Source of the DNA: Cupriavidus sp. D39
GTDB taxonomy: Bacteria > Pseudomonadota > Gammaproteobacteria > Burkholderiales > Burkholderiaceae
Length of the DNA stretch: 64,000 bases
Assembly: GCF_026627925.1 (NCBI RefSeq)
Contig: NZ_JAPNLE010000009.1
Coordinates: 3,782,001-3,846,000, forward strand
Direction: 5' to 3'
The translations under genes were made by a program, and so were the position numbers. The notes under the pieces are model-generated. The model worked only from the letters and a program-made list of their open reading frames with translations, had not been told where the DNA came from and made no database searches. Below, piece after piece: positions 30,485-43,513 of the stretch (positions are counted from its first letter, which is position 1; the number at the start of each line of letters is the position of its first letter).

Positions 30485-32064
30485 CTACTTGGTGATGGCG
30501 AACGCGTAAGTCCGCTCATCCTGGCGCGGCACCACCTTGTACCCCTTCTTCGCCGCCCACACGTTGATCTGGTAATACAGCGGGATCACGCCATAGTCCT
30601 TGATCCCGATCTCGGTCGCTTCCTGCAGCAGTTTCTCGCGCGCGCGATCGTCGATCGTGGTCAGCGCCGTGGCCAGCTTGGCATCCAGCGCAGGATTGCT
30701 GTAGCGGCCGCGATTGGATGAGCCCCAGCCCTTGGCCGGATCGTAGGTTGCCAGGAGCGACTTCAGCGACGAGCCAGCCTCCCCGTGTCCGCGCCCCAGC
30801 CGGCCAGCATGAAGGAAAACTCCAGCTTGTTGGCGCGCGTGAAGAAGGTGGCGGACGGCATCGCTTCGACCCGGGTCTGGATGCCGATGCGCGCGAGCAT
30901 GGAGGCAATCGCCTGCGCGACTTGTTCGTCGTTGACGTAGCGGTTGTTGGGCGCGTGCAGCGTGAGCGCGAAGCCGTCGGGGTAGCCGGCGTCGGCCAGC
31001 AGCTTCTTGGCGCCGGCGGCGTCGAAGGTGTCGGGCTTGAGGCCCGGCACATGGCCGAACAGCGTGGAGTTGACGAGCTGCCCGGTGGGCTCGGCGGCGC
31101 CTTCCATCACGCGCTCGACGATGGCCTGGCGCGAGATGGCGTGCGAGATGGCGGCGCGCACGCGTGGGTCCTTGAGCGGATTCTTGGCGAGCGGCTTGCC
31201 GGCCTTGTCGGTGACGAAGGGCGTGACGTCGCGGTTGGTGTCCAGGTGCAGGTACATCATGCGGAAGGTCGGCACCTTGAACACGCTCACGGCGGGATCG
31301 CTTGAGAGCTTGCGGATATCCGAGGTCGGCACGTTCTCGATGACCTGCACGTCGCCGGCGAGCAGCGCCGCCACGCGCGGCGCGTCGTTGGTGAGGATGC
31401 GCAGCGACACGGTGTCCCACTCGGGCTTGTTGCCCCAGTAGCCGTCGTTGCGGGTCAGCTCGATGCGGTCGCCCTTGCGGAAGCTGACGAACTTGTACGG
31501 GCCGGTGCCGACCATGGCGCGGCCGCTGTTGAAGTCGTCGCCGCTGGCGTTCTCCGCGACCTTCTTCGACAGCATGTAGATGGTGGAGAGGTCATTGGGC
31601 ACCAGCGGGTAAGGGCCGTTGGTGGTGATGCGCACGGTCAGCTTGTCGACCGCGGTGATGTCCTTGAAGCCCTTGGTGTAGATGGTGTACGGCGACGGGC
31701 TGTTCTTGACCGTGGCGGGGCGGTTCAGCGAATAGACCACGTCCGCCGAGGTGAACTCGCTGCCGTCGTGGAACTTCACGCCGGGGCGCAGCTTGATTTC
31801 CCAGGTGGTGTCGTCGACCGGCTTCCACGAGAGCGCCAGCGCGGGCTTGAAGCGCATCTTCTCGTCCTTGGCGATCAGGGCCTCGAACATATGCTCGGCC
31901 ACGTTCGCGTTGGGCGTGACGTTGTGATAGTGCGGGTCCAGCGAGGTGATGTCCCCGGACATGCCGATGGTGAGGCCGGCGGCCACGGCGGTCTGGGAGA
32001 GTGCGGCGCAGGCTAAGCTTGTGGCAAGTGCTGCGGCGCCAAGGGCGCGGCGGATGATCGTCAT
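30485..32064 (-). pseudogene. ABC transporter substrate-binding protein (peptide type, SBP_bac_5), one-base frameshift
   Basis: The gene encodes a periplasmic dipeptide/oligopeptide-type binding protein. It has a signal peptide ([20 protein letters not shown], ending AVAA), then [34 protein letters not shown] and GTGPYKFVSFRKGDR. The frame breaks near the CCCC run at 30781-30784: the text ends GADTGRLARR and a stop, while the next frame continues EAGSSLKSLLATYDPAKGWG to the natural end at 30485. The length, 1580 nt, is one base short. No permease or ATPase genes adjoin it, so it is an orphan receptor. A sequencing indel is likely. Confidence 0.87.
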
Positions 32065-32347
32065 CGATGGGTCCCCGGTAGGCAAGATGCGGTGCAGGCA
32101 TTGTCAGGAGATGCAGACATCCATGTCAAGGCGGGCAGACCCGCAGCGCCGGATGCACCGGGGCGAGGCGGCCGTGCACAGCGGGCGTGCGGTTTTGCGG
32201 GGTGTTTGCCCTGCCGCGCGGCACAAACTTCCGACTGTCAACTGTCAACTGTCAGGCCGCAAACCGGCGCAACTGTGCCTGTGCGGCCCGACAGCCCGGC
32301 TTTATATTGGAAGCCATTCTCTTTGCGCCACGCGCGCCTCCCCGCCC

Positions 32348-32971: not shown

Positions 32972-32978
32972 TGGGTGG

Positions 32979-34388
32979 CTACGCGCGTGGCAGCGTGCGC
33001 TGCAGCGACGCAGTCGTCGCGGCGGCAGCCGGCGCGGGCTCGTTCTCCAGCGTCGCGACCCGCAATGGCGCGGCGCCTACCGGCAGCGCGCGCTCGATCT
33101 CGATGCCTGCGCCACGCTGCGCCACCAGTGCCTGCAAACGCGTGAATTCGCCGCACCAGATGGTCTCGATATCGCGGTCGCGGCTGGTGTCGCGTACCTC
33201 GGAGAAGGCCACGGCGCGCACTTGCAGCCGCGCGCTGTCGCCGGCGCCACCGAGTTCCACGCCATAGCCCGGCGTGGCCGTCTTGCGCAGCGCCACCTTG
33301 CCTTGCTCGGCCCATGCGGTAGCCATGCCTTCGCGCACCTCGTAGCCAAGGCTGGCCAGGCCTCCCAGCACGGCCTCGCGGCGGGCGAGCGCGGCCTGCC
33401 GCTGGAGCAGGGTTTCGAGCATCGCTTCGCCGTGCTCGCATTGCACGCCGATGGTGGCGGCGTCCGCCGCCTGGCACGCAATGTCGATGACCTTGCGCAG
33501 TGCGAGAGCGTCCTGATCCAGGGTGCCGGATCCCAACGTGCCAAGGCCGTCCAGGCGCGCCGCCAGCGCATCCAGGCGCAGCAGCCATCCGGCACGCACC
33601 TGTCGCTCCCGCGCAGCCGCGGCAAGGTCCAGCAACAGGCTGTCCAGCAACATGCTGCGACGCGCCGATGCCGTCTCCGCCTGGGCGTTGGCTGCGCGCG
33701 CGGCGAAGCTGGCGGCGGCGTCGTGGTCGTCCAGTGCTTCCAGCATGCCGATGTGATGATCGATCTGGCGCAGGCGCGCATCGGTGGCGCCAGGCTGGCG
33801 CGCCTGCCATTGCGACAGCGTTTCGGTGGGCACGCCAGCCGACAGGGCGCTGGCGAGCGCGCGTTGCGCATCGCTCAGCGCGGCTCGCTCTTCCGGTGGC
33901 GCCATCAGGGTGAAGCCGCGTGCAAGCGCAGCCTGCGCTTGCGGGCCATGCAGGGTGCCGTCTTCGATGGCCTGCAGCGCCGTCAGCAAGTCCGCTGGCA
34001 AAGCCCGTTGCGGATCCCGCTGCTGGTCCCGCTGCTGATGCGCGCGGCGCAATGTGGCGGCGTTCTGTATCAACTGCCGCTGCTGCTGGCGGGCCTGTCC
34101 GGCTTGCTCCGCGGCGCGCTGCCGGCATGCCTCGAGATCGCCCTGCAGGAAGGCAAGCTCAGCCGCGGCGCCGCGCTGCAGCGCCCCGAACCGATCGGCT
34201 TCCAGCAGCGCCTGCAGGCCGGCGCGGCGCTCGCGCGTGGCCGCCAGCGTGGCTTGGTCGAGCTGTCCCAGGCGCTGTCCTTCGCGGCTCCAGTTGGCCA
34301 TGGCGTGGTCGAGTTGCGCGAGCTGGTCGCGCCCGCGTGCGATGCGCTCATCCCGGGTGACCACCCGGACTACCTTGGGGCCGCTCAT
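32979..34388 (-). CDS. Unknown protein, last gene of the AAA+/radical-SAM/helicase operon
   Basis: I do not recognise this 469-aa protein. The first 330 residues are almost all helix, with heptad-like Q/A/L/R stretches (LTALQAIEDG, ARERRAGLQALLEADRF, RQQQRQLIQ), suggesting coiled coils. Residues about 335-435 form a mixed alpha/beta region (ASLGYEVREGMATAWAEQGK, RLQVRAVAFSEV). There is no signal peptide or catalytic motif. The ATG overlaps the stop of the helicase gene (TCAT, 34385-34388), so it is part of the operon. A structural or sensor subunit for the helicase is a guess from context. Confidence 0.7.
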   Translation of the reverse strand: MSGPKVVRVVTRDERIARGRDQLAQLDHAMANWSREGQRLGQLDQATLAATRERRAGLQALLEADRFGALQRGAAAELAFLQGDLEACRQRAAEQAGQARQQQRQLIQNAATLRRAHQQRDQQRDPQRALPADLLTALQAIEDGTLHGPQAQAALARGFTLMAPPEERAALSDAQRALASALSAGVPTETLSQWQARQPGATDARLRQIDHHIGMLEALDDHDAAASFAARAANAQAETASARRSMLLDSLLLDLAAAARERQVRAGWLLRLDALAARLDGLGTLGSGTLDQDALALRKVIDIACQAADAATIGVQCEHGEAMLETLLQRQAALARREAVLGGLASLGYEVREGMATAWAEQGKVALRKTATPGYGVELGGAGDSARLQVRAVAFSEVRDTSRDRDIETIWCGEFTRLQALVAQRGAGIEIERALPVGAAPLRVATLENEPAPAAAATTASLQRTLPRA

Positions 34389-35065
34389 GGCGTGGCTCCT
34401 GTCGATGCCGCTTCGGCGGCGGCATGCGTGGCGGGTTCGCCCGGCGCCTCGTCCAGCTGCGCCGCCGGGCGCGTGGCGGCTTCGATCGCTGCCTTCAGGC
34501 GCGCACGCTCGCTCTCGCCATCGTGGTACCAGCCGTGCGAGGAAACGCGGTACACCCGCGCGATGGCGCGCGCTAGTACGGAAGGGCGCCAGATCTCGCG
34601 GGCACGGGCGCGGGCCAGCAGCGCGTGGCGCGGCGCATCGCATTCGATGCCCAGCGCATACAGGCCGGTGCGCGGGTCCTCGATGGCATAGTCCAGCCCG
34701 AAGGCGTCGCCTTCGCTGGCCGGCGCGAGCTGCCATCCGAGGCTGCGGACATAGCTGGCTACCGCGGCCTTGAAACCGTCCTGGGGCGCATCGTCGACTT
34801 CGCTGCCGGCGCTGCGCGGGCCTTCCGCTCGTTCGCCGTGGAGCCTGCCGAGCAGCCCTTCGCAGGCGGGGAATTCGCCGGCGGACAGCGTGCGGGCGTA
34901 CTCAAGATAGCTTTGCAGGAAGTCGCGCGGGATGGCCGGCGCGCGGCGCGTGGACAGCATGTCGGAAATATCGGAGATGGGCATCGAGGTCACCATCACC
35001 ACCTTGCGGCGCGCCCGCGTGACGGCTACGTTCAGGCGGCGCTCGCCGCCCTTCTGGCCGAGCAC
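34385..35065 (-). CDS. C-terminal part of the giant helicase: helicase end plus Vsr-like (MTES_1575-type) nuclease domain
   Basis: This frame is the 3' continuation of the helicase after the frameshift at about 35080; its first residues join as FGVLGQKGGERRLNVAVTRARRK, the last SF1 helicase motif. The C-terminal 110 residues look like the Vsr-like REase_MTES_1575 nuclease: GLDYAIEDPRTGLYALGIECDA gives the D and E-x-D residues, and HRVYRVSSHGWYHD-type ending (RVYRVSSHGWYHD) matches the family's closing W..D. There is no true start; the GTG at its beginning is internal. It should be read with the larger fragment as one roughly 2138-residue protein. Confidence 0.8.
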   Translation of the reverse strand: MLGQKGGERRLNVAVTRARRKVVMVTSMPISDISDMLSTRRAPAIPRDFLQSYLEYARTLSAGEFPACEGLLGRLHGERAEGPRSAGSEVDDAPQDGFKAAVASYVRSLGWQLAPASEGDAFGLDYAIEDPRTGLYALGIECDAPRHALLARARAREIWRPSVLARAIARVYRVSSHGWYHDGESERARLKAAIEAATRPAAQLDEAPGEPATHAAAEAASTGATP

Positions 35066-38000
35066 GCCGAAGTTGCGGCGAAAGCTCCCTGGCCGTTGCG
35101 GCCAAAGGTGGTGGAGAACACGATGATGTCGCGCTCGTCGCCCTGCACGTTTTCCACGTTCTTGACGAACACCGCCATGTCCTCGCCGCCTTCGCTGCGT
35201 TCGCGTTCCTCGCGGTAGGCGGCGCGGAAATCACCGTCGCGCGAGGCGCGTGCCTCCAGCACTTCTTCGATCAGGTCGGCCTGCTTGCGGTTGAAGGTGA
35301 CCACGCCCACCGAGGGCCGCTCGGCGAACGGCGCCTGCCATAGCGTGGCGAGCAGGTCTGCCACCTTCTCGGCTTCGGCGGGGTTGGTCTGGTTCTGGTA
35401 GAGGCCGTCCACGCGGATCAGCTCCACGGGCTTGTCCTGCAGGATGCGCGTGCGCGGATGGCGCACCGGCACGCTGAGCCGGTTGCCATAGAACGCGGCG
35501 TTGGAAAAGCCGATGAGCTCGCGGTAGGCCGATCGGTAGTGGATCTGCAGCGTCGCGCTGGGCAAGGCGGTGCGGGCCAGTTGCAGCAGGTCAGGGCAAT
35601 CCTTGATCTCGCGCCGGTTCCACTCCTCGTCGAAGGCGTCCTGCACGGCCTCGTCGGCGTTTTCGTCAGGGGCCTCGCCGTCGAACAGCTCGGCCTCGTC
35701 GCTCTCGATGCGGCTGGAGAAGAAGCTGGTCGGCGGCATCTGCTTCTCATCGCCGCTGACCACCGCGACGCGGCCGCGGAACAGGGTTGGCAGCGCGTAC
35801 TCGATGGGCATCTGCGAGGCTTCGTCGTAGATCACGGTGTCGAATAGCCCGGCCTTGAGCGGCAGCACGCGGCTAGCCACGTCGGGGTTCATCAGCCACA
35901 CCGGGCGCAGCGCCATGAGCCCCAGCGGCGCACCCAGCTCGATGAACTCGCGTAGCCTGCGCGCGCGCCGTCCGGTGAGGCGGGTGATGTCCTCCCATTC
36001 CTTGAGCGGGCGCACGCGGCTGCGCTCGATGCCTTGTACCAGCAGCGCGCGGTTGAGCCGGCGCATCTCGACGTCGGCGGCGGCCAGCGCGCTCACGCGC
36101 GCCTCGGTTTCGCCGCGTTCGAGTTGCAGCGCCGGGTGGTGCAGCTCAAGCTGCCGCTTCCAGGCGAGGCGCGCCTCCCGGTTGAGCAGGCGCCGCACCT
36201 CGGCCTCGAGCGTGTCGGTGGGTATCGCTTCGAGCGCTTGCTGCTTGTCGCGCAGCGTGGCGAACACGGCCAGCTCGTCAGGGCCGAGCTGGCTGGCGCG
36301 GCTGCGGAACCGCTGATAGGCCGGCAGCGTGGGCAGTGCCGCCGCAAGCGGCGCCGTCAAAGGCGCGCTGTCCTTGTTGCCGGCAATGGCTTCGTCGCAG
36401 GCGGCAATCCAGTCCGGCTCGCACCAGCCGGCCAGGCGCTGCAGCGCGGCGTGGCTGATGCGGCGTGCTTCGCAGCGCGCGAAAGCAGCGTCGAATCCGG
36501 CCAGCAAGGCGACCACCGTCTCGCGCCGTCCGCTGGCGAGCGCGGCTTCGACCTGCTCTGCGCGAGGGGCTTGCGCGAGGCGATCGCACATTGCCGCTGC
36601 ATCGTGCAGGCGGGCCTGCGCGTCGGCGCATAGCGCAGGGAGTGCCAGGCCGGCGTCGGTGGCAGGCGCGGGCAGCGAGAGGTGTTGCAGGATCTCGCGC
36701 AGGGCCTGGCGCGGCGCGCGCCATTGCTGTTCCAGCCGCGCCGCCATGGCCAGCGCCCTCAGCCGGCTGGAATCCGCCGCGGCCGCGGCGTTGCCGCTGC
36801 AGCGTTGCAGCAAAGCCAGTTGCTTGCGCTGGCGCAGCCAGCGCGCCGGGCTGAGGCGGCCAAGCAGGCCGGCGGGCGTCGCCAGTTGCTCGGCGCGTGA
36901 GACCGCTGCGGCGAGTTCGCCTGCGTCGAGTGCGGCCAGCGCGGGCGACAGCACGGCATCTTGTGCGTCCTGCGGGCAGGCGGCGAGTTGCTGTTGCACC
37001 TGCGCGAGCTGCGCCAGCAGCGCGGCGCCGCGCGTGGTCGCGCCAGGGGTCGTGTTGGCCGGTGCTCCGGCCAGCGGACGGAACAGTGGCAGCCAGCGTG
37101 CCAGGTCGGCGCGGCGCCCGTCGTCGAGCGCGAGCAAGGCGTCGCCATGGCTGGCGAGCCATGCGCGATGCGAGCCGGGATCTTCGACTTCGAATGCCGC
37201 GGGACGGTGCGCGAGCACATCGGCGCGCGCTTGTTCGGTTTGCACCAGGCGCTCGAAGTTCTCGCTGAAATCGGCGAGCGTGGCGCTGTCGGTGGCGAAG
37301 GGGCGCAGGCGCGCCAGCGGGCTGCCTTCGAAGCGCGCGGGCAGCCAGTAGCGGGCCAGCGGCGCGCAGGCTTCTTCCAGCGCGGCAAGGCTGGCGGTGT
37401 CGAGCGGCTCCAGCCTGGCGCGCAGCGCCGGCACGTCCAGCGGCGGTCTGCCTTGTTCCAGCGCCACCAGTTCGCCCAGCAAGCCGCGGTAGCTCAGGCC
37501 GATGCGCGCATCGACCTGGTGCAGCGCTTGCTGGTGGCGGTCCAGTTCTCCCTCCAGCGCTTCGATGCGCGCGGCGATGCGCTCGCGTTGTGCGCGCCAT
37601 GCGGGCGGACCGGCGTCGGGCGTCTTCAACAGCGCCTCGAGCTGCTCGCGCACGCCACGGATCACCGGCTCGCGGTCGCGGTTCACGTCGCTCAACATGA
37701 CGATGCGCTGCTCCAGTCCTTCGGCAACCAGCCGCTTTCGCACCACGTCGAGCGCGGCTTGCTTCTGGCACACGATCAGCAGGCTGCGCTGGCGGCCGAG
37801 CGCATCGGCCACCATATTGACGATGGTCTGGCTTTTGCCGGTACCGGGCGGGCCTTCGACCAGCAGGCCCGGCGCCTGCCGCGCCTGCAACACTGCCGCT
37901 TCCTGCGAAGGATCGCTCGCCACGGTGAAGTAGCGCTCGCGCTCCGGCGGCTGCGTGGCTTCGGTGGCGTCGGCCGCTTCGGTTGCAGCGTCGGCATCCG

Positions 38001-40800
38001 GCGCGGCAGCATGGCCCGCGCCCAGCCGCAACGCGGTCTCCAGCCCCGTACCGCCGCCAGGCAGGGTCTTGAGCTGCCGCAGGTCCTCGCCGACCGCCTG
38101 GCCCATGAAGGTGACATGGAACAGCACTGCCGCGCACGAGAGCGCGTCCTGATAAGGCTGCACCTCCGTGTCGAGTCCGGGCAGGCGGCCCAGCACACGC
38201 TCGCTCGCGCTGGCCAGCGTGCCGAAGGCGTCCATCACCTCGCCGGCCTTGAGCGCGGAGCGCCCCAGCAGCTCGTCGGCGGCGTCGCGCCAGCGGCGGC
38301 TGGCCTCGATGCCCAGCAGCGCTTCCAGCGCCGGGTTCAGGCGCACTTCCTCGCGCTCGCCGTCAAAGGCCAGCGCTACCTGGCCCCGGCTGCCGACTTC
38401 CAGCAGCAGCCTGACCGGCCACAACAGCACTGGCGCGATGCGGGTCTTGGTGTTGCCGCGCGCGTCGCGCGTGAGCAGGAAGGGAAAGCCGAGGTAGAGG
38501 CCGTCGATGCCGGTATCGCGACGGTACAGCGTGCTGTGCCGGTACAGGCTCTGCAGGCGCAGCTCCAGCTCGGGGCGCTCGCCGAAGAGCGCGGGGTCCA
38601 GCGAGACCGGTTGCGCATTGCGCTGGAGCAAGTGGTCGAGCAACGCGCCGGCGGGACGGCGCGCGCTGTCGAGCTCGCGCAGGTCGATGCGCGCGGTGGT
38701 CTTGCCGATGCTCATGCGCACCAGCGGCCCGCGCAGCACGGCGGTGGCCACCTTCTTCTGGAAGAAGTCGAGGATGTCGGCCACGTATTGCTGCTTTTGC
38801 GGCGCGAGCCATTGCTCCGGCGGCACCGCCAGCAGCACCAGCGCCTGCGCCAGCGGCAGGCGCCGCTCCAGGCGGAACTGCGCTGCCCAGCCGTCGACCG
38901 CGGCCACGCTGCTGCGCGCGAAGCCTTCCAGGCGCGCGTCCACCGCCTGCCAGATCGCTAGCCGGCCCTGTTCGAGCCAGGCGCGCGCTGTGTCGTCGCT
39001 GAACGCGAGCACGTCCTCGCGCCGGGCCAGCGCCGCGGCTTGCTCGACGATCGCATCGATCGAGCGGAACTGGCCGGGCGCGGCGGACAGCAGCACGATC
39101 AGGTCTTCCTCGCCAATCAGCCGGCGCTCGGCCAGCGACAGCACGCCGGCGTGGCTGCTGTCCGGCAGCAGCCGCCGGCGCGCCTCCCACAGCGCGGCGA
39201 GACGCGCGCGCGAGCTCGACAACAAGTGGATGCGCAGGCTGTCTTCGTCAAGCTCGATCTCCAGGCTGCGCGCGCGCTGGCGCACCTGGGCCGCGCGGGC
39301 CTTGAGGCGGACCAGCCAGTGCTCGTTGTCGAAGCGGGACAGCAGGTCGGGCGCCAGGCCTGCGAGCAGCGCGTAGCCTTGCTGCGGATGCTGCAGCAGC
39401 CAGCCCGGCGTGACAATGTCGCCGCGCAGGATCAGCGGCATTTCCGGGTTGAGCAGCTTGAGGGCGAGCATCAGGCGGAAATCGTCTTCCAGGCCCTCGT
39501 GCCGCGCCACTTCGCGCAGGCCGGACAGGCGCTGCGCGGGCAGCGCGGCATCCTGCGCCCAGGTCACGATGACGCCGCGCCGCAGGTGGTCGCCGGCCTG
39601 GTCCCAGTTGCCGGCTTCCGCGGCGGCGAGTGCAAACTGCGCCGGGCTGCGGTAGCGCCGGCCGCCCAGTTCGATGGCGCTGGCGGCGCCGCTGTCGTGC
39701 TCGGTGGCCTGCTCGCCGCTGTCGGCGGGGGCATCGACTGCCTCGCCATTGAGCCATGCCTGCACCTGCGGCCATTGCCAGCGCTGATTGTGGTCTCGCG
39801 CCAGCAGGCCGCGCAGCAGCAGGCGCAATTCGGGATCGAGGTCATCGGGCAGCGCCACACCGTTGGCCAGCACGTGGATCAGGAAAGCCTGCGGATGGAT
39901 GTCCGCGAAGCAGGCGCCGCCGGTGACCTGCTCCAGCAGGATCATGCCCAGGCTCCACCAGTCGGAGGCGGCCGCGACGCCGCCGGCAATGGCTTCGGGC
40001 GCCATATAGCGCGAGGTCTCCAGCGGCGAGACGATGTCGAGGTCGAAGTCCGACAGCCGCGCCGAGCCGAAGCCGCTGACCACCAGGTCGAGCGGCTCGC
40101 GCTGGCGTACCAGCAGCGTGCCGGGGCGCAGGTCGCGGTGGCGCAGCCCGGCTTCCGAGAACACATGCAGCGCCTCGCCAAGCTCGCGCACGATATGGCG
40201 AATCCGCTCGAGGTCGCCGGCGACGATGCCAAGGTCGGCCAGGGTGCCTGCGCTGAGTTCCTCGGCCACTTCATAGGCGCGCTCCTGCCAGCGCCCGGTG
40301 GCCAGGATCTCCGGCACGTGGGCGCGCGGCAGGCGTTGCAGCAGCGCGTAGACGGCCGGGTCGGGCTCGGCGCCGGCGCGGTAGAGCGTCAGGACGGCAT
40401 GGCGCTCGGTATCGACCTGCTGCGCGGCATAGCGCTCGCGCACCCCGTCGGTGCTGGCGATGCGGCGCAGCAGGCGCCAGCCGGCGATGACGTCCGCTTC
40501 GGCGTGGGCGCCGGTTTCAGCGTTCGGCACATCGCCTGCCGGATCGGCGCCGCATTGCAGGCAGATCAGGTCGTCGGCAGCCATCGGGTGGCCATTGAGG
40601 CAGTGGCCTGGCGCTACGTCGGGCGCCTGCTGCGCGGCGGCAGGCGTAGCGGTGGTTGCCGTTGCGGCAGGGCGCCAGCCCGGCGCATGGATTGCTTCGC
40701 CGGACAGGTCCCAGCCGCAGGGCGCCTGGCCGAACAAGCCTTCGCAGAAGATCTCCGCCAGTGAACGTTCGGTCTGGCAGTTGGGGCAAAAACGCATCAT
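35032..40800 (-). CDS. Zinc-ribbon, pseudokinase and SF1 helicase protein (major part, frameshifted near its 3' end)
   Basis: The intact gene would run 40800-34385. N-terminal zinc ribbons (MRFCPNCQTE; CLNGHPM..CLQCG) lead into a protein-kinase-like domain (about residues 100-370). H221-R222-D223 is kept, but the DFG motif is GFG (243-245) and the usual lysine strand reads AVLTLY, so it is probably a pseudokinase. After about 600 unrecognised residues comes a superfamily 1 helicase: Walker A GPPGTGKSQT with K989, DEAS box at D1659 (VIYDEASQMP) and QGDERDIIVFSTTFG. The frame ends prematurely: AFAATSACSARR replaces the expected RRNFGVLGQKGG. ATG 40800 overlaps the radical-SAM stop. Confidence 0.85.
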   Translation of the reverse strand: MMRFCPNCQTERSLAEIFCEGLFGQAPCGWDLSGEAIHAPGWRPAATATTATPAAAQQAPDVAPGHCLNGHPMAADDLICLQCGADPAGDVPNAETGAHAEADVIAGWRLLRRIASTDGVRERYAAQQVDTERHAVLTLYRAGAEPDPAVYALLQRLPRAHVPEILATGRWQERAYEVAEELSAGTLADLGIVAGDLERIRHIVRELGEALHVFSEAGLRHRDLRPGTLLVRQREPLDLVVSGFGSARLSDFDLDIVSPLETSRYMAPEAIAGGVAAASDWWSLGMILLEQVTGGACFADIHPQAFLIHVLANGVALPDDLDPELRLLLRGLLARDHNQRWQWPQVQAWLNGEAVDAPADSGEQATEHDSGAASAIELGGRRYRSPAQFALAAAEAGNWDQAGDHLRRGVIVTWAQDAALPAQRLSGLREVARHEGLEDDFRLMLALKLLNPEMPLILRGDIVTPGWLLQHPQQGYALLAGLAPDLLSRFDNEHWLVRLKARAAQVRQRARSLEIELDEDSLRIHLLSSSRARLAALWEARRRLLPDSSHAGVLSLAERRLIGEEDLIVLLSAAPGQFRSIDAIVEQAAALARREDVLAFSDDTARAWLEQGRLAIWQAVDARLEGFARSSVAAVDGWAAQFRLERRLPLAQALVLLAVPPEQWLAPQKQQYVADILDFFQKKVATAVLRGPLVRMSIGKTTARIDLRELDSARRPAGALLDHLLQRNAQPVSLDPALFGERPELELRLQSLYRHSTLYRRDTGIDGLYLGFPFLLTRDARGNTKTRIAPVLLWPVRLLLEVGSRGQVALAFDGEREEVRLNPALEALLGIEASRRWRDAADELLGRSALKAGEVMDAFGTLASASERVLGRLPGLDTEVQPYQDALSCAAVLFHVTFMGQAVGEDLRQLKTLPGGGTGLETALRLGAGHAAAPDADAATEAADATEATQPPERERYFTVASDPSQEAAVLQARQAPGLLVEGPPGTGKSQTIVNMVADALGRQRSLLIVCQKQAALDVVRKRLVAEGLEQRIVMLSDVNRDREPVIRGVREQLEALLKTPDAGPPAWRAQRERIAARIEALEGELDRHQQALHQVDARIGLSYRGLLGELVALEQGRPPLDVPALRARLEPLDTASLAALEEACAPLARYWLPARFEGSPLARLRPFATDSATLADFSENFERLVQTEQARADVLAHRPAAFEVEDPGSHRAWLASHGDALLALDDGRRADLARWLPLFRPLAGAPANTTPGATTRGAALLAQLAQVQQQLAACPQDAQDAVLSPALAALDAGELAAAVSRAEQLATPAGLLGRLSPARWLRQRKQLALLQRCSGNAAAAADSSRLRALAMAARLEQQWRAPRQALREILQHLSLPAPATDAGLALPALCADAQARLHDAAAMCDRLAQAPRAEQVEAALASGRRETVVALLAGFDAAFARCEARRISHAALQRLAGWCEPDWIAACDEAIAGNKDSAPLTAPLAAALPTLPAYQRFRSRASQLGPDELAVFATLRDKQQALEAIPTDTLEAEVRRLLNREARLAWKRQLELHHPALQLERGETEARVSALAAADVEMRRLNRALLVQGIERSRVRPLKEWEDITRLTGRRARRLREFIELGAPLGLMALRPVWLMNPDVASRVLPLKAGLFDTVIYDEASQMPIEYALPTLFRGRVAVVSGDEKQMPPTSFFSSRIESDEAELFDGEAPDENADEAVQDAFDEEWNRREIKDCPDLLQLARTALPSATLQIHYRSAYRELIGFSNAAFYGNRLSVPVRHPRTRILQDKPVELIRVDGLYQNQTNPAEAEKVADLLATLWQAPFAERPSVGVVTFNRKQADLIEEVLEARASRDGDFRAAYREERERSEGGEDMAVFVKNVENVQGDERDIIVFSTTFGRNGQGAFAATSACSARRAASAA

Positions 40801-41486
40801 GGCTGGGAGTATCCGTTGGGTTCGGCCCGCCTGGCGGCGCGGTCCTCGGTGATGGTGATGGTGTGGCCCTGGGCCTGCAGCAGCGCGCGCAGCCGCCCGA
40901 GGTCGCCGCGCCGGGGGATGCCGGCCAGCCACACGGTACCGTCGTCGTCGAACATCAGGTCGAGCGCGCGATCGTGCGCGGCCAGCGGGCGCTCGAAGGC
41001 GCCGAAGCGCGCGCGGCCAAGCGGGGTGAGCAGGTGCAGGCGCTGGTTGTCGCTGCCGCGCAGCGCCAGCGTCTGCGGCGCGTGCAGCGCGAACGGGTCG
41101 GATATCAGCGCGTCGATCAGGCCGTCGGCGCGCGCCAGCACGGGTGCCAGCGCTTCGATGGGATGGCCGCTGTAGACCAGGATGTCGAGCGGGCTGGCCG
41201 CGCGCAGCGCATGCAGCAGCGCCAGCAGGCCCTCGGGCTGCTCGAACGGCTCGCCGCCCGAGATGGTGATGCCCTCGGCCTGTGCCAGCCAGGGTGCCAG
41301 CGTCGCCATCAACGTTGTCACGCTCGTGCTGCGCCCGCTACCGGCCTGCCAGGTGTCTGCCGAGATGCAGCCGGGGCAGCGGATCGAGCAGCCTTGCAGC
41401 CAGATGCCGACGCGCTGTCCGGGGCCGAGCGTCGTGACGGGGAAATGCAGGCGCGACAAATCCAGCGCTGCCTCGGCGCCGCTCAC
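40797..41486 (-). CDS. Radical-SAM 4Fe-4S protein, activase (NrdG-like) type
   Basis: This 229-aa protein has the radical-SAM cluster motif C33xxxC37xxC40 in WLQGCSIRCPGCISAD and the SAM-binding GGEP block in ITISGGEPFEQPEG. Its size and the LQGC context resemble glycyl-radical activating enzymes such as NrdG. No glycyl radical enzyme is encoded nearby, so its target is unknown. The start is GTG 41486, inside the upstream stop (GTGA overlap); its own stop overlaps the helicase start. Tight coupling implies it works with the AAA+ and helicase proteins. Confidence 0.85.
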   Translation of the reverse strand: MSGAEAALDLSRLHFPVTTLGPGQRVGIWLQGCSIRCPGCISADTWQAGSGRSTSVTTLMATLAPWLAQAEGITISGGEPFEQPEGLLALLHALRAASPLDILVYSGHPIEALAPVLARADGLIDALISDPFALHAPQTLALRGSDNQRLHLLTPLGRARFGAFERPLAAHDRALDLMFDDDGTVWLAGIPRRGDLGRLRALLQAQGHTITITEDRAARRAEPNGYSQP

Positions 41487-43369
41487 AGGCGTTGCAGGCT
41501 GAGCTGCGTGAAGGCGCCGGTTGTCAGCCCGGCGATCTCGAAGCGCTCGCCCGGCTGCGCGTCCTGGTCGAACAGCGCGCGCGCCAGCGGGTTCAGCAGG
41601 TGGGCTTCGACCTGGTTGCGGATGCCGCGCCCGCCGTTGGTGAGATCGGCCAGGCAGCGCTCGCGCAGCGCTTGCAATGCGCCGGCGGCCAGCGTCAGGT
41701 GCAGGTCCTGGCGCGCCAGGTCGGCCAGCACATTGTCCACCATCTGCGTGAAGATCTGCGCGGCGATATCGGCGCGGATGAAATCGAACACGATCACGTT
41801 CTCGCCGATGCGGTTGAGGATCTCCGGGCGATTCAGCTCCAGCTTGAAGTAGCGCTCGATCTCGCTGCGCACCTTGGCCTGTACCGCTTCGAAGGGCTCG
41901 GCCGGGGTGACGTTGGCCACCCGCAGGCCATCCGCGCCGGTGCGGTAGATGCCCAGGTTGGAGGTGAACACGATTAGCGCCTCGGAGAAATACACGCGGT
42001 CGCCGCGCCCCGAGGTCAGCACGCCGTCGTCCAGGATCTGCAGGAACTTGTCGAGGATGCGCGGATGGGCCTTCTCGATCTCGTCGAACAGCACCACGGC
42101 AAAGGGCTTCTCGCGGATCGCGTTGGTCAGCTCGCCGCCCACGTCATAGCCGACGTAGCCGGGCGGCGCGCCGATCAGGCGCTGGTCGGCGTGCTCGGCG
42201 CTGAACTCGGACATGTCGAAGCGGATGTAGGCGCTCTCGTCGCCGAACAGCAGACTGGTGATGGTCTTGGCCAGCTCGGTCTTGCCCACGCCGGTGGGCC
42301 CGGCCAGGAAGGCCACGCCGCGCGGCCGTCCGCCGCGCCGCCCGCCGCCCACGCCGGTCATGGCGCGCTTGACGATATCGAGCATGTGCGTGGCCGCATG
42401 GCCCTGGCCCTTGACCCGGCGGCTAATGAATTCGCTCGCGCCGCGGATGCGGTTGCGATCGATCTTCAGCCAGGGGTCCTCGGTTACGCCCACCTTGTAG
42501 CGGCGCACTGCGTCGGCCACCTGGGACAGCGGCACGCCTTCTACCCGCGCCAGCTGCGTGATGGCGTTCAGATCGAGCAGCAGCATGCCCTCGGTGTCAT
42601 CGACGAAAGCCTGCTGCGCCTGCTGGATGGCCTGCGCATCGGCGTCCTGCGCGCCCGCCAGGCCGCGCAGCAGCGCCGGCGCCAGCGCGCGGCGGGCGTG
42701 GTGATCGGGCTTGGCCACCGGGATATGGCGCAGGCGCGGGTTGCCCACCAGCAGCCAGTCGGGCAGGTCGCCTTCCTTGTCGACCACCCACAGGATGCTG
42801 TTGAAGAAGGGCTTGCGCGCCGTGCCGGCCGGGCGCGAGCGGACCTGGTGCGACAGCACCAGCGCGCGGGTGAACAGCTGGTGTTCGGCGGGGCTGGGGT
42901 TGTCTGCGCGCGTGAGCAGCCGCGAAGCGAAATCCACCATCAGCGCCAGCGGCTCGCCGGGGTGCGCGGCGAAGCGCTCCAGCGTGGTGCCGAGCAGGTC
43001 GATGCCGGCATTGGCGCGGCCTTCGCTCACGGTCAGGCCGAACTGCTGCAGGATGGCCTCGGCCGGTTTGCTGTCTTCGCCGGGCGCGCACAGCGCCTGG
43101 AAGCCTGCTACCGGGTCGTAGAGAAAGACGTGGGCGTAGCCCGCTTCGCGCAGGGCGCCGTGCATGGCCAACGCGAAGGACTGCGGCGCGATGACGCCAG
43201 GCGCCACCTCGCAGGCCTGCAGGTCGCGTACGTTGCCCGACAGCACGAACTGGCTCTTGAGCGGCAGGAAGCGCAGCAGGTCGCGCAGCCAGCGCGGGCG
43301 GGTGAAGGCGGGGGCAGCGGCAGCGGCGGCTGCAGCCGCTGAAGCGTTTGCGGGTTCGGTACCGGACAT
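41483..43369 (-). CDS. AAA+ ATPase with ClpB/ClpA-like C-terminal module
   Basis: This 628-aa protein has a unique N-terminal half (about 1-330, opening PRWLRDLLRFLPLKSQFVLSGNVRD) and a single ClpB-type AAA_2 module. Walker A is [12 protein letters not shown] with K363, GAPPGYVGYDVGGELTNAI is the pore-loop region, Walker B is VVLFDEIEKAHP, and a ClpB D2-like small domain carries LNRPEILNRIGENVIVF. Unlike ClpB, the first AAA ring and the coiled-coil middle domain are missing. It begins the operon; ATG 43369 is taken, though a further in-frame start at 43423 exists. A role in remodelling a partner protein is inferred. Confidence 0.85.
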   Translation of the reverse strand: MSGTEPANASAAAAAAAAAPAFTRPRWLRDLLRFLPLKSQFVLSGNVRDLQACEVAPGVIAPQSFALAMHGALREAGYAHVFLYDPVAGFQALCAPGEDSKPAEAILQQFGLTVSEGRANAGIDLLGTTLERFAAHPGEPLALMVDFASRLLTRADNPSPAEHQLFTRALVLSHQVRSRPAGTARKPFFNSILWVVDKEGDLPDWLLVGNPRLRHIPVAKPDHHARRALAPALLRGLAGAQDADAQAIQQAQQAFVDDTEGMLLLDLNAITQLARVEGVPLSQVADAVRRYKVGVTEDPWLKIDRNRIRGASEFISRRVKGQGHAATHMLDIVKRAMTGVGGGRRGGRPRGVAFLAGPTGVGKTELAKTITSLLFGDESAYIRFDMSEFSAEHADQRLIGAPPGYVGYDVGGELTNAIREKPFAVVLFDEIEKAHPRILDKFLQILDDGVLTSGRGDRVYFSEALIVFTSNLGIYRTGADGLRVANVTPAEPFEAVQAKVRSEIERYFKLELNRPEILNRIGENVIVFDFIRADIAAQIFTQMVDNVLADLARQDLHLTLAAGALQALRERCLADLTNGGRGIRNQVEAHLLNPLARALFDQDAQPGERFEIAGLTTGAFTQLSLQRL

Positions 43370-43513
43370 GGGCGGGCTCGGGAAGATCCAGGGGCGCGCG
43401 GCCGTGTGCCGCGCGCGCACCATGCGGATTCTATCCCCCGTGCGCCATCATGCCGGCACCGGTACCAGTTTGTTACCACGCGGGGCGGGCAGGGCCCGCC
43501 TTTGCGGTGCTGC

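Follow-up and report, generated by a model that had tools for sequence, protein, structure and literature searches.

What is the role of an operon that places a Clp-type ATPase and a radical S-adenosylmethionine (SAM) enzyme beside a helicase-nuclease and a protein that matches no family? This question is raised by four minus-strand genes at 32979-43369 of a 64,000-nucleotide stretch of Cupriavidus sp. D39 (contig NZ_JAPNLE010000009.1, positions 3,782,001 to 3,846,000; here called the window). They encode an AAA+ protein, a radical-SAM protein, a pseudokinase-helicase-nuclease, and a protein referred to as the coiled-coil protein, a label taken over from an earlier reading of the letters alone (the sequence-only reading) and not the result of a predictor. 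Neighboring genes overlap by 4 bases at 41483-41486, 40797-40800, and 34385-34388; the four genes, their overlaps, and the coordinates were all as that reading had given them (Table 1). The operon is a real and mobile multi-gene system, as yet unnamed, that falls among the helicase-nuclease conflict systems; what is unusual in it is a constant control pair formed by the AAA+ and radical-SAM genes. As to its function, we give close to an even chance to the reading that it is a transferred and probably antiviral or anti-plasmid cassette, in which this constant control module would work an exchangeable effector that attacks nucleic acids.

The four genes are a conserved and transferred unit

The four genes are a real conserved unit. 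First, among 79 genomes from the genus to which G722 belongs, each of three genes, AAA+ (E 1e-75), coiled-coil (1e-20), and radical-SAM (1e-25), was found in six; these were the identical six, with the three genes contiguous in a constant order and the helicase gene between them, and none were found in the other 73 (Fisher p 3.6e-9). One internal stop was flagged in four of these six radical-SAM rows and in one coiled-coil row, and in the two that were checked, G741 (radical-SAM) and G722 (coiled-coil), the gene ends at about the usual length. Second, when 18 loci are compared pairwise, the identities of the four proteins rise and fall together (r 0.88 to 0.95), a correlation that includes shared host ancestry and to which one genus contributes six rows; for any pair of proteins, none of 2,000 permutations was as high. 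Third, the radical-SAM family was found in 21 of the 26 loci whose AAA+ protein scored above 450 bits with its family, compared to 1 weak match in 72 others (71 of them ordinary Clp-type), a contrast that is somewhat favorable because the radical-SAM profile was partly built from the compared loci and because L100, L102, and L103 of the 26 were fetched via other genes of the set. The sequence-only reading had allowed that the neighbors might not be conserved elsewhere; the set is kept in other genomes.

The distribution is sparse. The coiled-coil gene occurs in 4 of 60 genomes of the window's genus (4 of 100 relatives), and the AAA+ gene in 8 of 397 genomes drawn from the phylum and 5 of 274 drawn from the class, the window being counted each time. 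The whole set was found in four of the seven other phylum-draw loci. In the remaining three, G532 has a truncated helicase and no coiled-coil match within the 20 kb examined, G380 has the AAA+ and radical-SAM genes plus a distant kinase match, and G374 has the AAA+ gene alone on a 10-kb contig. Among the other four class-draw loci, radical-SAM and coiled-coil matches are present in G298, and the AAA+ gene stands alone in the remaining three (10 to 20 kb examined). Other DUF4011 genes of the window's genus were considered as copies of the set and rejected: 19 of 60 genomes match, only 4 carry the set, and six of the remaining 15 loci, when opened (L104-L109), showed helicase/nuclease identities of just 27 to 43% and lacked matches to the AAA+, radical-SAM, and coiled-coil families. 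In two Clostridia loci (L010 and L012), a gene for an unknown protein of ∼247 aa lies directly downstream of the AAA+ gene.

The cassette is horizontally transferred. In G023, G038, and G056, the matches to the flanking GST-like and TonB-receptor genes are 63, 48, and 42 bases apart, respectively, compared to 10.5 kb in the window, where the insert is bordered by the stop of the GST-like gene on one side and the end of the TonB-receptor gene on the other. G047 has this insertion too, and G049 has the same left border, its contig ending inside. G044, also of the window's genus, carries the set at a different site: its operon is on contig 20 and its TonB receptor on contig 31. In the genus that includes G722, the flanks are common to G798, G808, and G810 and different in each of G722, G741, and G748, giving at least four sites. 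The window AAA+ protein is 73 to 76% identical to the copies of this other genus, compared to 68% to that of G044 from its own genus. The set is also found on Rhizobium plasmids typed conjugative, and on one plasmid with the gene arrangement of the window (type A) an N-6 DNA methylase gene lies ∼4 kb outside it.

A constant control pair with exchangeable partners

Twenty plasmid records carry the AAA+ gene (E ≤1e-70). When 11 of these were opened, the radical-SAM gene adjoined the AAA+ gene in 10 and was 8.7 kb off in the eleventh; in the type-A plasmid records, the two were neighbors in 8 of 8, the radical-SAM gene being matched as two pieces in two of them. The radical-SAM partner that had caught the attention of the sequence-only reading is constant across type-A copies for which both genes were available. 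A second arrangement, type B, has the order helicase, PIN protein, unnamed protein, AAA+, and radical-SAM, and was opened in five records (Moellerella, Acinetobacter, Leisingera, Polaromonas, and Photobacterium). In L119, the helicase matched MkoA (7e-102) and the PIN protein matched PIN_4 (4.6e-22). A restriction-modification S-subunit gene and ArdA lie within 12 kb in one of the five records (L119), and an integrase in two (L119 and L124). The unnamed protein of L119 has relatives of 85 to 90% identity in Rhodoferax, Shewanella, Undibacterium, Acidithiobacillus, and Aeromonas, a level that suggests recent transfer; megablast found no E. coli copies of the type-B plasmid set. In a third arrangement, type C (Aristaeella, L118), the order is a DUF4011 gene, a kinase, an MSGPK protein, an FHA/Zn-ribbon protein, radical-SAM, AAA+, a phosphatase, and two more genes, the second of which is a kinase. 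A Gaiella contig has an MSGPK protein, AAA+, and radical-SAM followed by what by eye are Zn-ribbon-like and PP2C-like genes. The pair occurs with at least three different effector sets.

Other radical-SAM genes were seen near these sets. Beside the type-B set of the Acinetobacter plasmid pNDM1_010055 (L120:14325-16307), a small AAA gene, a longer radical-SAM gene, and an unknown gene are consecutive, and two radical-SAM genes lie upstream of the set in L124. Two actinobacterial plasmids typed conjugative (L131:4252-7989 and L132:8980-12603) carry a parallel AAA/radical-SAM module, in which a relative of the same radical-SAM family is accompanied by another kind of AAA ATPase and by small genes, those in L131 being annotated DUF2997 and helix-hairpin-helix.

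The sequence-only reading described the AAA+ protein as ClpB-like. This holds from residue ∼280 onward, where the D2 module has the features of a Clp-type unfoldase, namely, Walker A, Walker B, the pore loop GYVG, and sensors 1 and 2. In an alignment of 132 rows, which counts the window protein twice, Walker A (GPTG[VT]GKTE) is present in 131 and Walker B (LFDEIEKAH) in all 132. The N-terminus is another matter: residues 1 to 253 are covered by none of the 49 matched PDB sequences, and a comparison with ClpB D1 gave no support (hhalign E 0.07). ClpB and ClpA have two active AAA modules, and ClpB also has a middle domain; here, the D2 module alone was matched. Phage-borne copies were also looked for and rejected. 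None of the 39 matching phage records spans more than 80% of the protein, and among the 20 of these matches that were listed, all start at or after residue 274, so they cover the Clp module only.

In intact copies, the effector of the type-A set is one polypeptide with a Zn-ribbon-like start, a dead kinase, an SF1 (superfamily 1) helicase, and an MTES_1575 nuclease. The Zn-ribbon call is made from the cysteine pattern only (Pfam E 0.33). Active Ser/Thr kinases have the VAIK lysine, the HRD aspartate, and the DFG aspartate. In 9 of 9 aligned N-terminal sequences, the VAIK lysine and DFG aspartate are missing and HRD is present, which agrees with the pseudokinase named in the sequence-only reading. 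The nuclease scored 66.7 bits with PF18741, above the cut-off of 38.2 (E 1.9e-18). All the domains listed in that reading (AAA+, radical SAM, kinase, helicase, and nuclease) were found, but it took 34385-40800 for one gene and overlooked a frameshift near 35080. The open reading frame 35032-40800 leaves frame there, directly before helicase motif VI, and motif VI and the nuclease lie in another frame, which rules out a single uninterrupted helicase-nuclease gene in this assembly of the window. Seven complete homologues read straight through the site.

The frameshift means that the operon in this strain might be a decaying or sequencing-damaged remnant without present function. The stretch from motif I to VI is broken in G047 and G532 as well, and frame changes nearer the N-terminus are found in L115, where the radical-SAM gene is also affected, and G741. 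We consider a remnant unlikely, though it is to be reckoned with, because the motif I to VI stretch is unbroken in 17 of 20 type-A loci, 15 of 20 show no frame change in the helicase gene at all, and the other three genes of the window are open. Moreover, the neighboring gene for the substrate-binding protein (SBP) of an ABC transporter is shifted too: its open frame is 446 aa compared to 541 aa in the close relatives G047, G038, and G023 (96 to 97% identity), and the missing end lies in another frame. Since this gene is also frameshifted, an assembly error is possible; that two shifts lie less than 5 kb apart is compatible with indels made in assembly and also allows true mutations. Type-A loci often have an interrupted helicase-nuclease gene (L100, L115, L137, and L144), perhaps because the gene is costly to carry or because of sequencing error. 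PA2727 of Pseudomonas aeruginosa, which tables describe as "similar DNA helicase" and "histidine kinase," is probably a relative of the window helicase gene, and PA2725-PA2728 of PAO1 presumably correspond to this gene set. Excerpts of two reports record PA2727 as altered in a cystic-fibrosis clone of P. aeruginosa and in clone CHA or TB, and one table row gives "PA2727 + PA2728" as a single gene, which suggests that the gene is split in PAO1 (PMC4918941, PMC3697988).

The radical-SAM enzyme and its candidate substrate

By its motifs (cluster motif CX3CX2C and GGE) and a Fer4_12 match above the Pfam cut-off, the radical-SAM protein belongs to the radical SAM superfamily; PF04055 stayed below its cut-off (21.6 versus 29.5 bits). 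Both CX3CX2C and GGEP are present in 21 of the 22 rows of the family, the 22nd being a C-terminal fragment. The best named matches were NrdG (E 5.9e-21) and then PFLA (1.5e-15), but the NrdG model TIGR02491 gave 75 bits against a cut-off of 126.1, and the window genome has no NRDD match. Glycyl-radical enzymes were sought as PF01228 and PF13597, with E. coli and other controls positive, in 14 operon-bearing genomes that include some drafts and the truncated set of G532. The glycyl radical domain PF01228 was found in 0 of 14, and neither family in 9 of 14, including the window genome (97.8% complete) and the single-contig G741 and G798. Because nine genomes are without both families while the cluster and SAM motifs are intact, the substrate is probably no known glycyl-radical enzyme.

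These results bear on two alternatives. The enzyme could be a spare activase for the host anaerobic ribonucleotide reductase or another unlinked glycyl-radical enzyme, as its NrdG-like sequence and the presence of NRDD (PF13597) in 5 of the 14 genomes would allow; with PF01228 in none, neither family in nine, and a score well under the NrdG cut-off, we disfavor this strongly. The enzyme could also make a small antiviral or signaling molecule in the manner of viperin, with the other genes responding to it. The pVip models do give a weak match to one type-B member (E 5.6e-6), and the lack of both searched families in nine genomes would fit as well, but the window protein had no PADLOC match, viperin (pVip) included, at E 1, and its best named matches are to protein-modifying activases; we regard this explanation as improbable.

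If the enzyme instead modifies a protein encoded beside it, as we prefer, the coiled-coil protein comes to the fore. It matched no Pfam, PADLOC, or NCBIfam family at E 1, and no convincing solved structural relative was found among eight matches (designed helical bundles and SidC) at E 0.004 or worse. In 66 mostly closer relatives, the mean majority frequency was 0.92 for residues 1 to 15 and 0.81 for residues 339 to 442, compared to 0.51 to 0.64 for residues 16 to 338. The exceptions to an MSGPK start were two proteins with MSGPT or MSGPS and one without residues at that place, and Cys412 was kept in 66 of 66. Across 13 diverse type-A proteins (down to 15% identity), the invariant columns were M1, S2, G3, P4, G348, Y349, D404, C412 (13 of 13), L418, and G426. 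Because MSGP and one cysteine are invariant in this set, the coiled-coil protein appears to be the best candidate substrate of the radical-SAM enzyme, a proposal we make tentatively. That the AAA+ protein acts on it seems evenly balanced. Both parts of this adaptor-substrate model draw on residue conservation and gene linkage.

Known systems and the proposed role

The helicase piece matched ProA (NF058533, 1.5e-117), the PADLOC candidate PDC-S37 (1.2e-108), and the DUF4011 helicase antiphage protein Hhe (2.5e-76), and the nuclease piece matched the same three (2.8e-28, 2.9e-30, and 1.2e-11, respectively). Like the window protein, all three join an SF1 helicase to a C-terminal nuclease region; unlike them, the window protein has an N-terminal pseudokinase and three partner genes. 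The two frameshift pieces were searched apart, which lowers the scores: 257 + 43 bits for Hhe (NF042953; cut-off, 2000 bits), a sum still far below, and 394 + 98 bits for ProA (cut-off, 1500 bits for a 1903-aa architecture), with only the helicase-nuclease part matched. No paper naming ProA was found in the literature searched. The kinase region matched the MkoA, MAD6, and PD-T4-6 models, and in the MkoA match (2.6e-44) the kinase is the best stretch; the sequence-only reading had named Mokosh as an example of a kinase-helicase fusion. Mokosh type I consists of the kinase-helicase MkoA with its partner MkoB. Here, MkoA was matched in pieces only, and MkoB was found neither among the 25 of 30 families listed for the helicase piece nor among all matches of the other four proteins. 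The kinase-helicase architecture is common to both; the window protein differs from Mokosh in its dead kinase and fused nuclease, and none of its AAA+, radical-SAM, or coiled-coil partners matched a Mokosh model. An excerpt of one report names MkoA and MkoB as the Mokosh components (PMC11291487).

Other likenesses concern the control pair. FtsH ternary systems are AAA+-centered AAA+/vWA conflict modules in which a radical SAM effector is thought to modify a protein encoded nearby, as excerpted (PMC7159879). The present operon is likewise AAA+-centered with a radical-SAM protein but has a Clp D2-type AAA+ and no vWA gene, the likeness being one of description and not of compared radical-SAM families. 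The kinases, FHA/Zn-ribbon protein, and PP2C-type gene of type C (L118), and the Zn-ribbon-like and PP2C-like genes seen by eye in L009, resemble the TerY-P and FHA/PP2C kinase modules, as far as these are described in an excerpt (PMC11090510). Unlike TerY-P, no vWA annotation was present among the 11 L118 genes listed, and the window version is without the kinase, FHA, and PP2C genes of type C.

The closest description was found for P. aeruginosa, which has relatives of the AAA+ (76% identity) and coiled-coil (48%) proteins. As excerpted, one report describes the right flank of the defense hotspot cDHS1 as having a small hypothetical, a large DUF4011, and a radical SAM gene side by side, treated only as the border of the hotspot; every P. 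aeruginosa isolate has the DUF4011 gene and, at the opposite border, merR (PMC10250203). We infer that these are the same genes as in this operon; the AAA+ gene does not appear in the excerpts. This was the only paper found in the literature searched in which two or more of cDHS1, DUF4011, radical SAM, and PA14_RS11765 occur together. No PADLOC or NCBIfam model covers the four-gene set, and no named system was matched above its curated cut-off, an outcome that the sequence-only reading had held open. Its statement that no named system has this radical-SAM partner stands for these two model collections and is qualified by the cDHS1 paper, which names part of the set as a border. No description of the four-gene set was found in the mainly open-access literature searched, so a name may exist elsewhere.

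A role in defense or conflict, with presumed antiphage activity, is reasonably likely. Defense is suggested because the helicase-nuclease is homologous to the NCBI-named antiphage families ProA and Hhe and the candidate PDC-S37, and conflict because the distribution is patchy and transferred and the effectors are of the ProA/Hhe/Mokosh type. In such a system, the helicase would locate nucleic acid that is foreign or damaged, a signal would reach the pseudokinase and Zn-ribbon, and the MTES_1575 nuclease would cut. The AAA+ protein would thread or remodel the coiled-coil adaptor and thereby release or assemble the effector, and the radical-SAM enzyme would modify the adaptor, at the MSGP terminus or Cys412, or leave it carrying a radical, and this step would serve for licensing or sensing.

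Several observations weigh against this reading. First, most of the type-A surroundings examined do not look like a defense island, while association with defense genes is mixed over all copies, with such genes near the cDHS1 border, L119, and one type-A plasmid: the scanned window flanks are housekeeping genes (AceK, thiolase, TonB receptor, and HslU-like), and in five of six other type-A loci the neighbors look metabolic or housekeeping by eye, the exception being G722 with a recombinase-like gene. Second, a DUF4011 gene carried by every P. aeruginosa isolate is unusual for a defense system. Third, the control pair was not always found together: in L010-L012 and L111-L113, which carry an AAA+ protein of the family, no radical-SAM match was found in the DNA examined. 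In addition, five of the 14 operon-bearing genomes do have an NRDD. Finally, the type-B counterparts of the coiled-coil protein are without MSGP and have their own invariant cysteine, C333. They were not accepted as proven homologues of the type-A proteins (hhalign E 0.19 and 0.12, collinear, not significant), and mixed type-A/B alignments leave only G348 and G426 invariant, so neither MSGP nor Cys412 can be taken as the target in every type.

Some of these points would suit a stress-response or DNA/RNA-repair system, in which oxidative or metal stress would be detected by the AAA+ protein and the radical enzyme, and nucleic acid of the host, once damaged, would be processed by the helicase-nuclease. 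The cassette stands alone among housekeeping genes, the cDHS1 DUF4011 gene is universal in the isolates of the excerpted study (PMC10250203), and the kinase/FHA/PP2C version (L118) resembles stress-signaling modules such as TerY-P (PMC11090510, as excerpted). A patchy transferred distribution (4 of 60 genomes in the window's genus and 6 of 79 in the other) and effectors of the ProA/Hhe/Mokosh type speak for conflict instead, and we hold a stress or repair role to be rather unlikely.

Carried further, the conflict reading would define a class of systems run by protein radical chemistry, in which an orphan NrdG-like activase places a radical, or a mark made by one, on a dedicated coiled-coil adaptor (in type A, at the MSGP terminus or Cys412), a Clp-type AAA+ ring reads the mark, and the effector can be exchanged, being a pseudokinase-helicase-nuclease, a helicase with a PIN RNase, or a kinase cascade. 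This joint claim is speculative, and we would sooner expect it to fail than to hold. If true, bacterial immunity would gain what is, to our knowledge, its first post-translational radical switch. If the defense reading is true, radical modification and an unfoldase would add a layer of control that the named helicase-nuclease systems used for comparison do not have, and the chemistry of the trigger could be new. What can be tested is the radical step, for which a mobile set with an NrdG-like radical-SAM enzyme, in genomes without both searched glycyl-radical families, makes a concrete case. Relatives of the operon parts are present in many Pseudomonas, including P. aeruginosa, yet no named system was matched in the model collections searched.

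Table 1. Features of the operon, its insert, and related plasmid sets (window positions unless a record is named)
Feature	Position	Strand	Basis
Accessory insert, only the four genes inside	32972..43511	.	Empty site in G023, G038, G056
AAA+ protein, 628 aa: N-terminal 280 residues without assignment, then ClpB-type D2 module	41483..43369	-	Pfam AAA_2 E 7.6e-44
NrdG/PflA-like radical-SAM protein, 229 aa	40797..41486	-	CX3CX2C + GGEP; Fer4_12 E 2.8e-22
Zn-ribbon-like N-terminus, pseudokinase, DUF4011 remnant, SF1 helicase motifs I to V	35032..40800	-	Frame lost after ∼35080
Frameshift separating motif VI + nuclease from helicase (approximate)	35075..35090	-	Homologue alignment
Gene continuation in other frame: helicase motif VI (NVAVTRAR), MTES_1575 endonuclease (ECDAPRH)	34385..35065	-	Frame + alignment
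MSGPK coiled-coil protein, 469 aa, proposed adaptor/substrate	32979..34388	-	Conservation
Near-invariant N-terminal MSGPK codons	34374..34388	-	MSGP in 13/13; MSGPK in 63/66
Conserved C-terminal domain, residues 339-442	33063..33374	-	Cys412 at 33153-33155
SBP gene of ABC transporter, split by frameshift	30763-32085 and 30485-31420	-	Continuous in relatives
Type-B five-gene plasmid version	L119:4343-14296; L120:4335-14054; L121:2027-12429		Records opened
Type-B five-gene plasmid version, further records	L122:1819-11730; L124:2569-12276		Records opened

Sigma-70 promoters were sought and not found, and terminators were no more frequent than at chance level. No tRNA genes were found in the 64-kb window or in the 12 flank pieces tested. 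One accessory protein of the window matches one of Cupriavidus sp. 8B at 96%.

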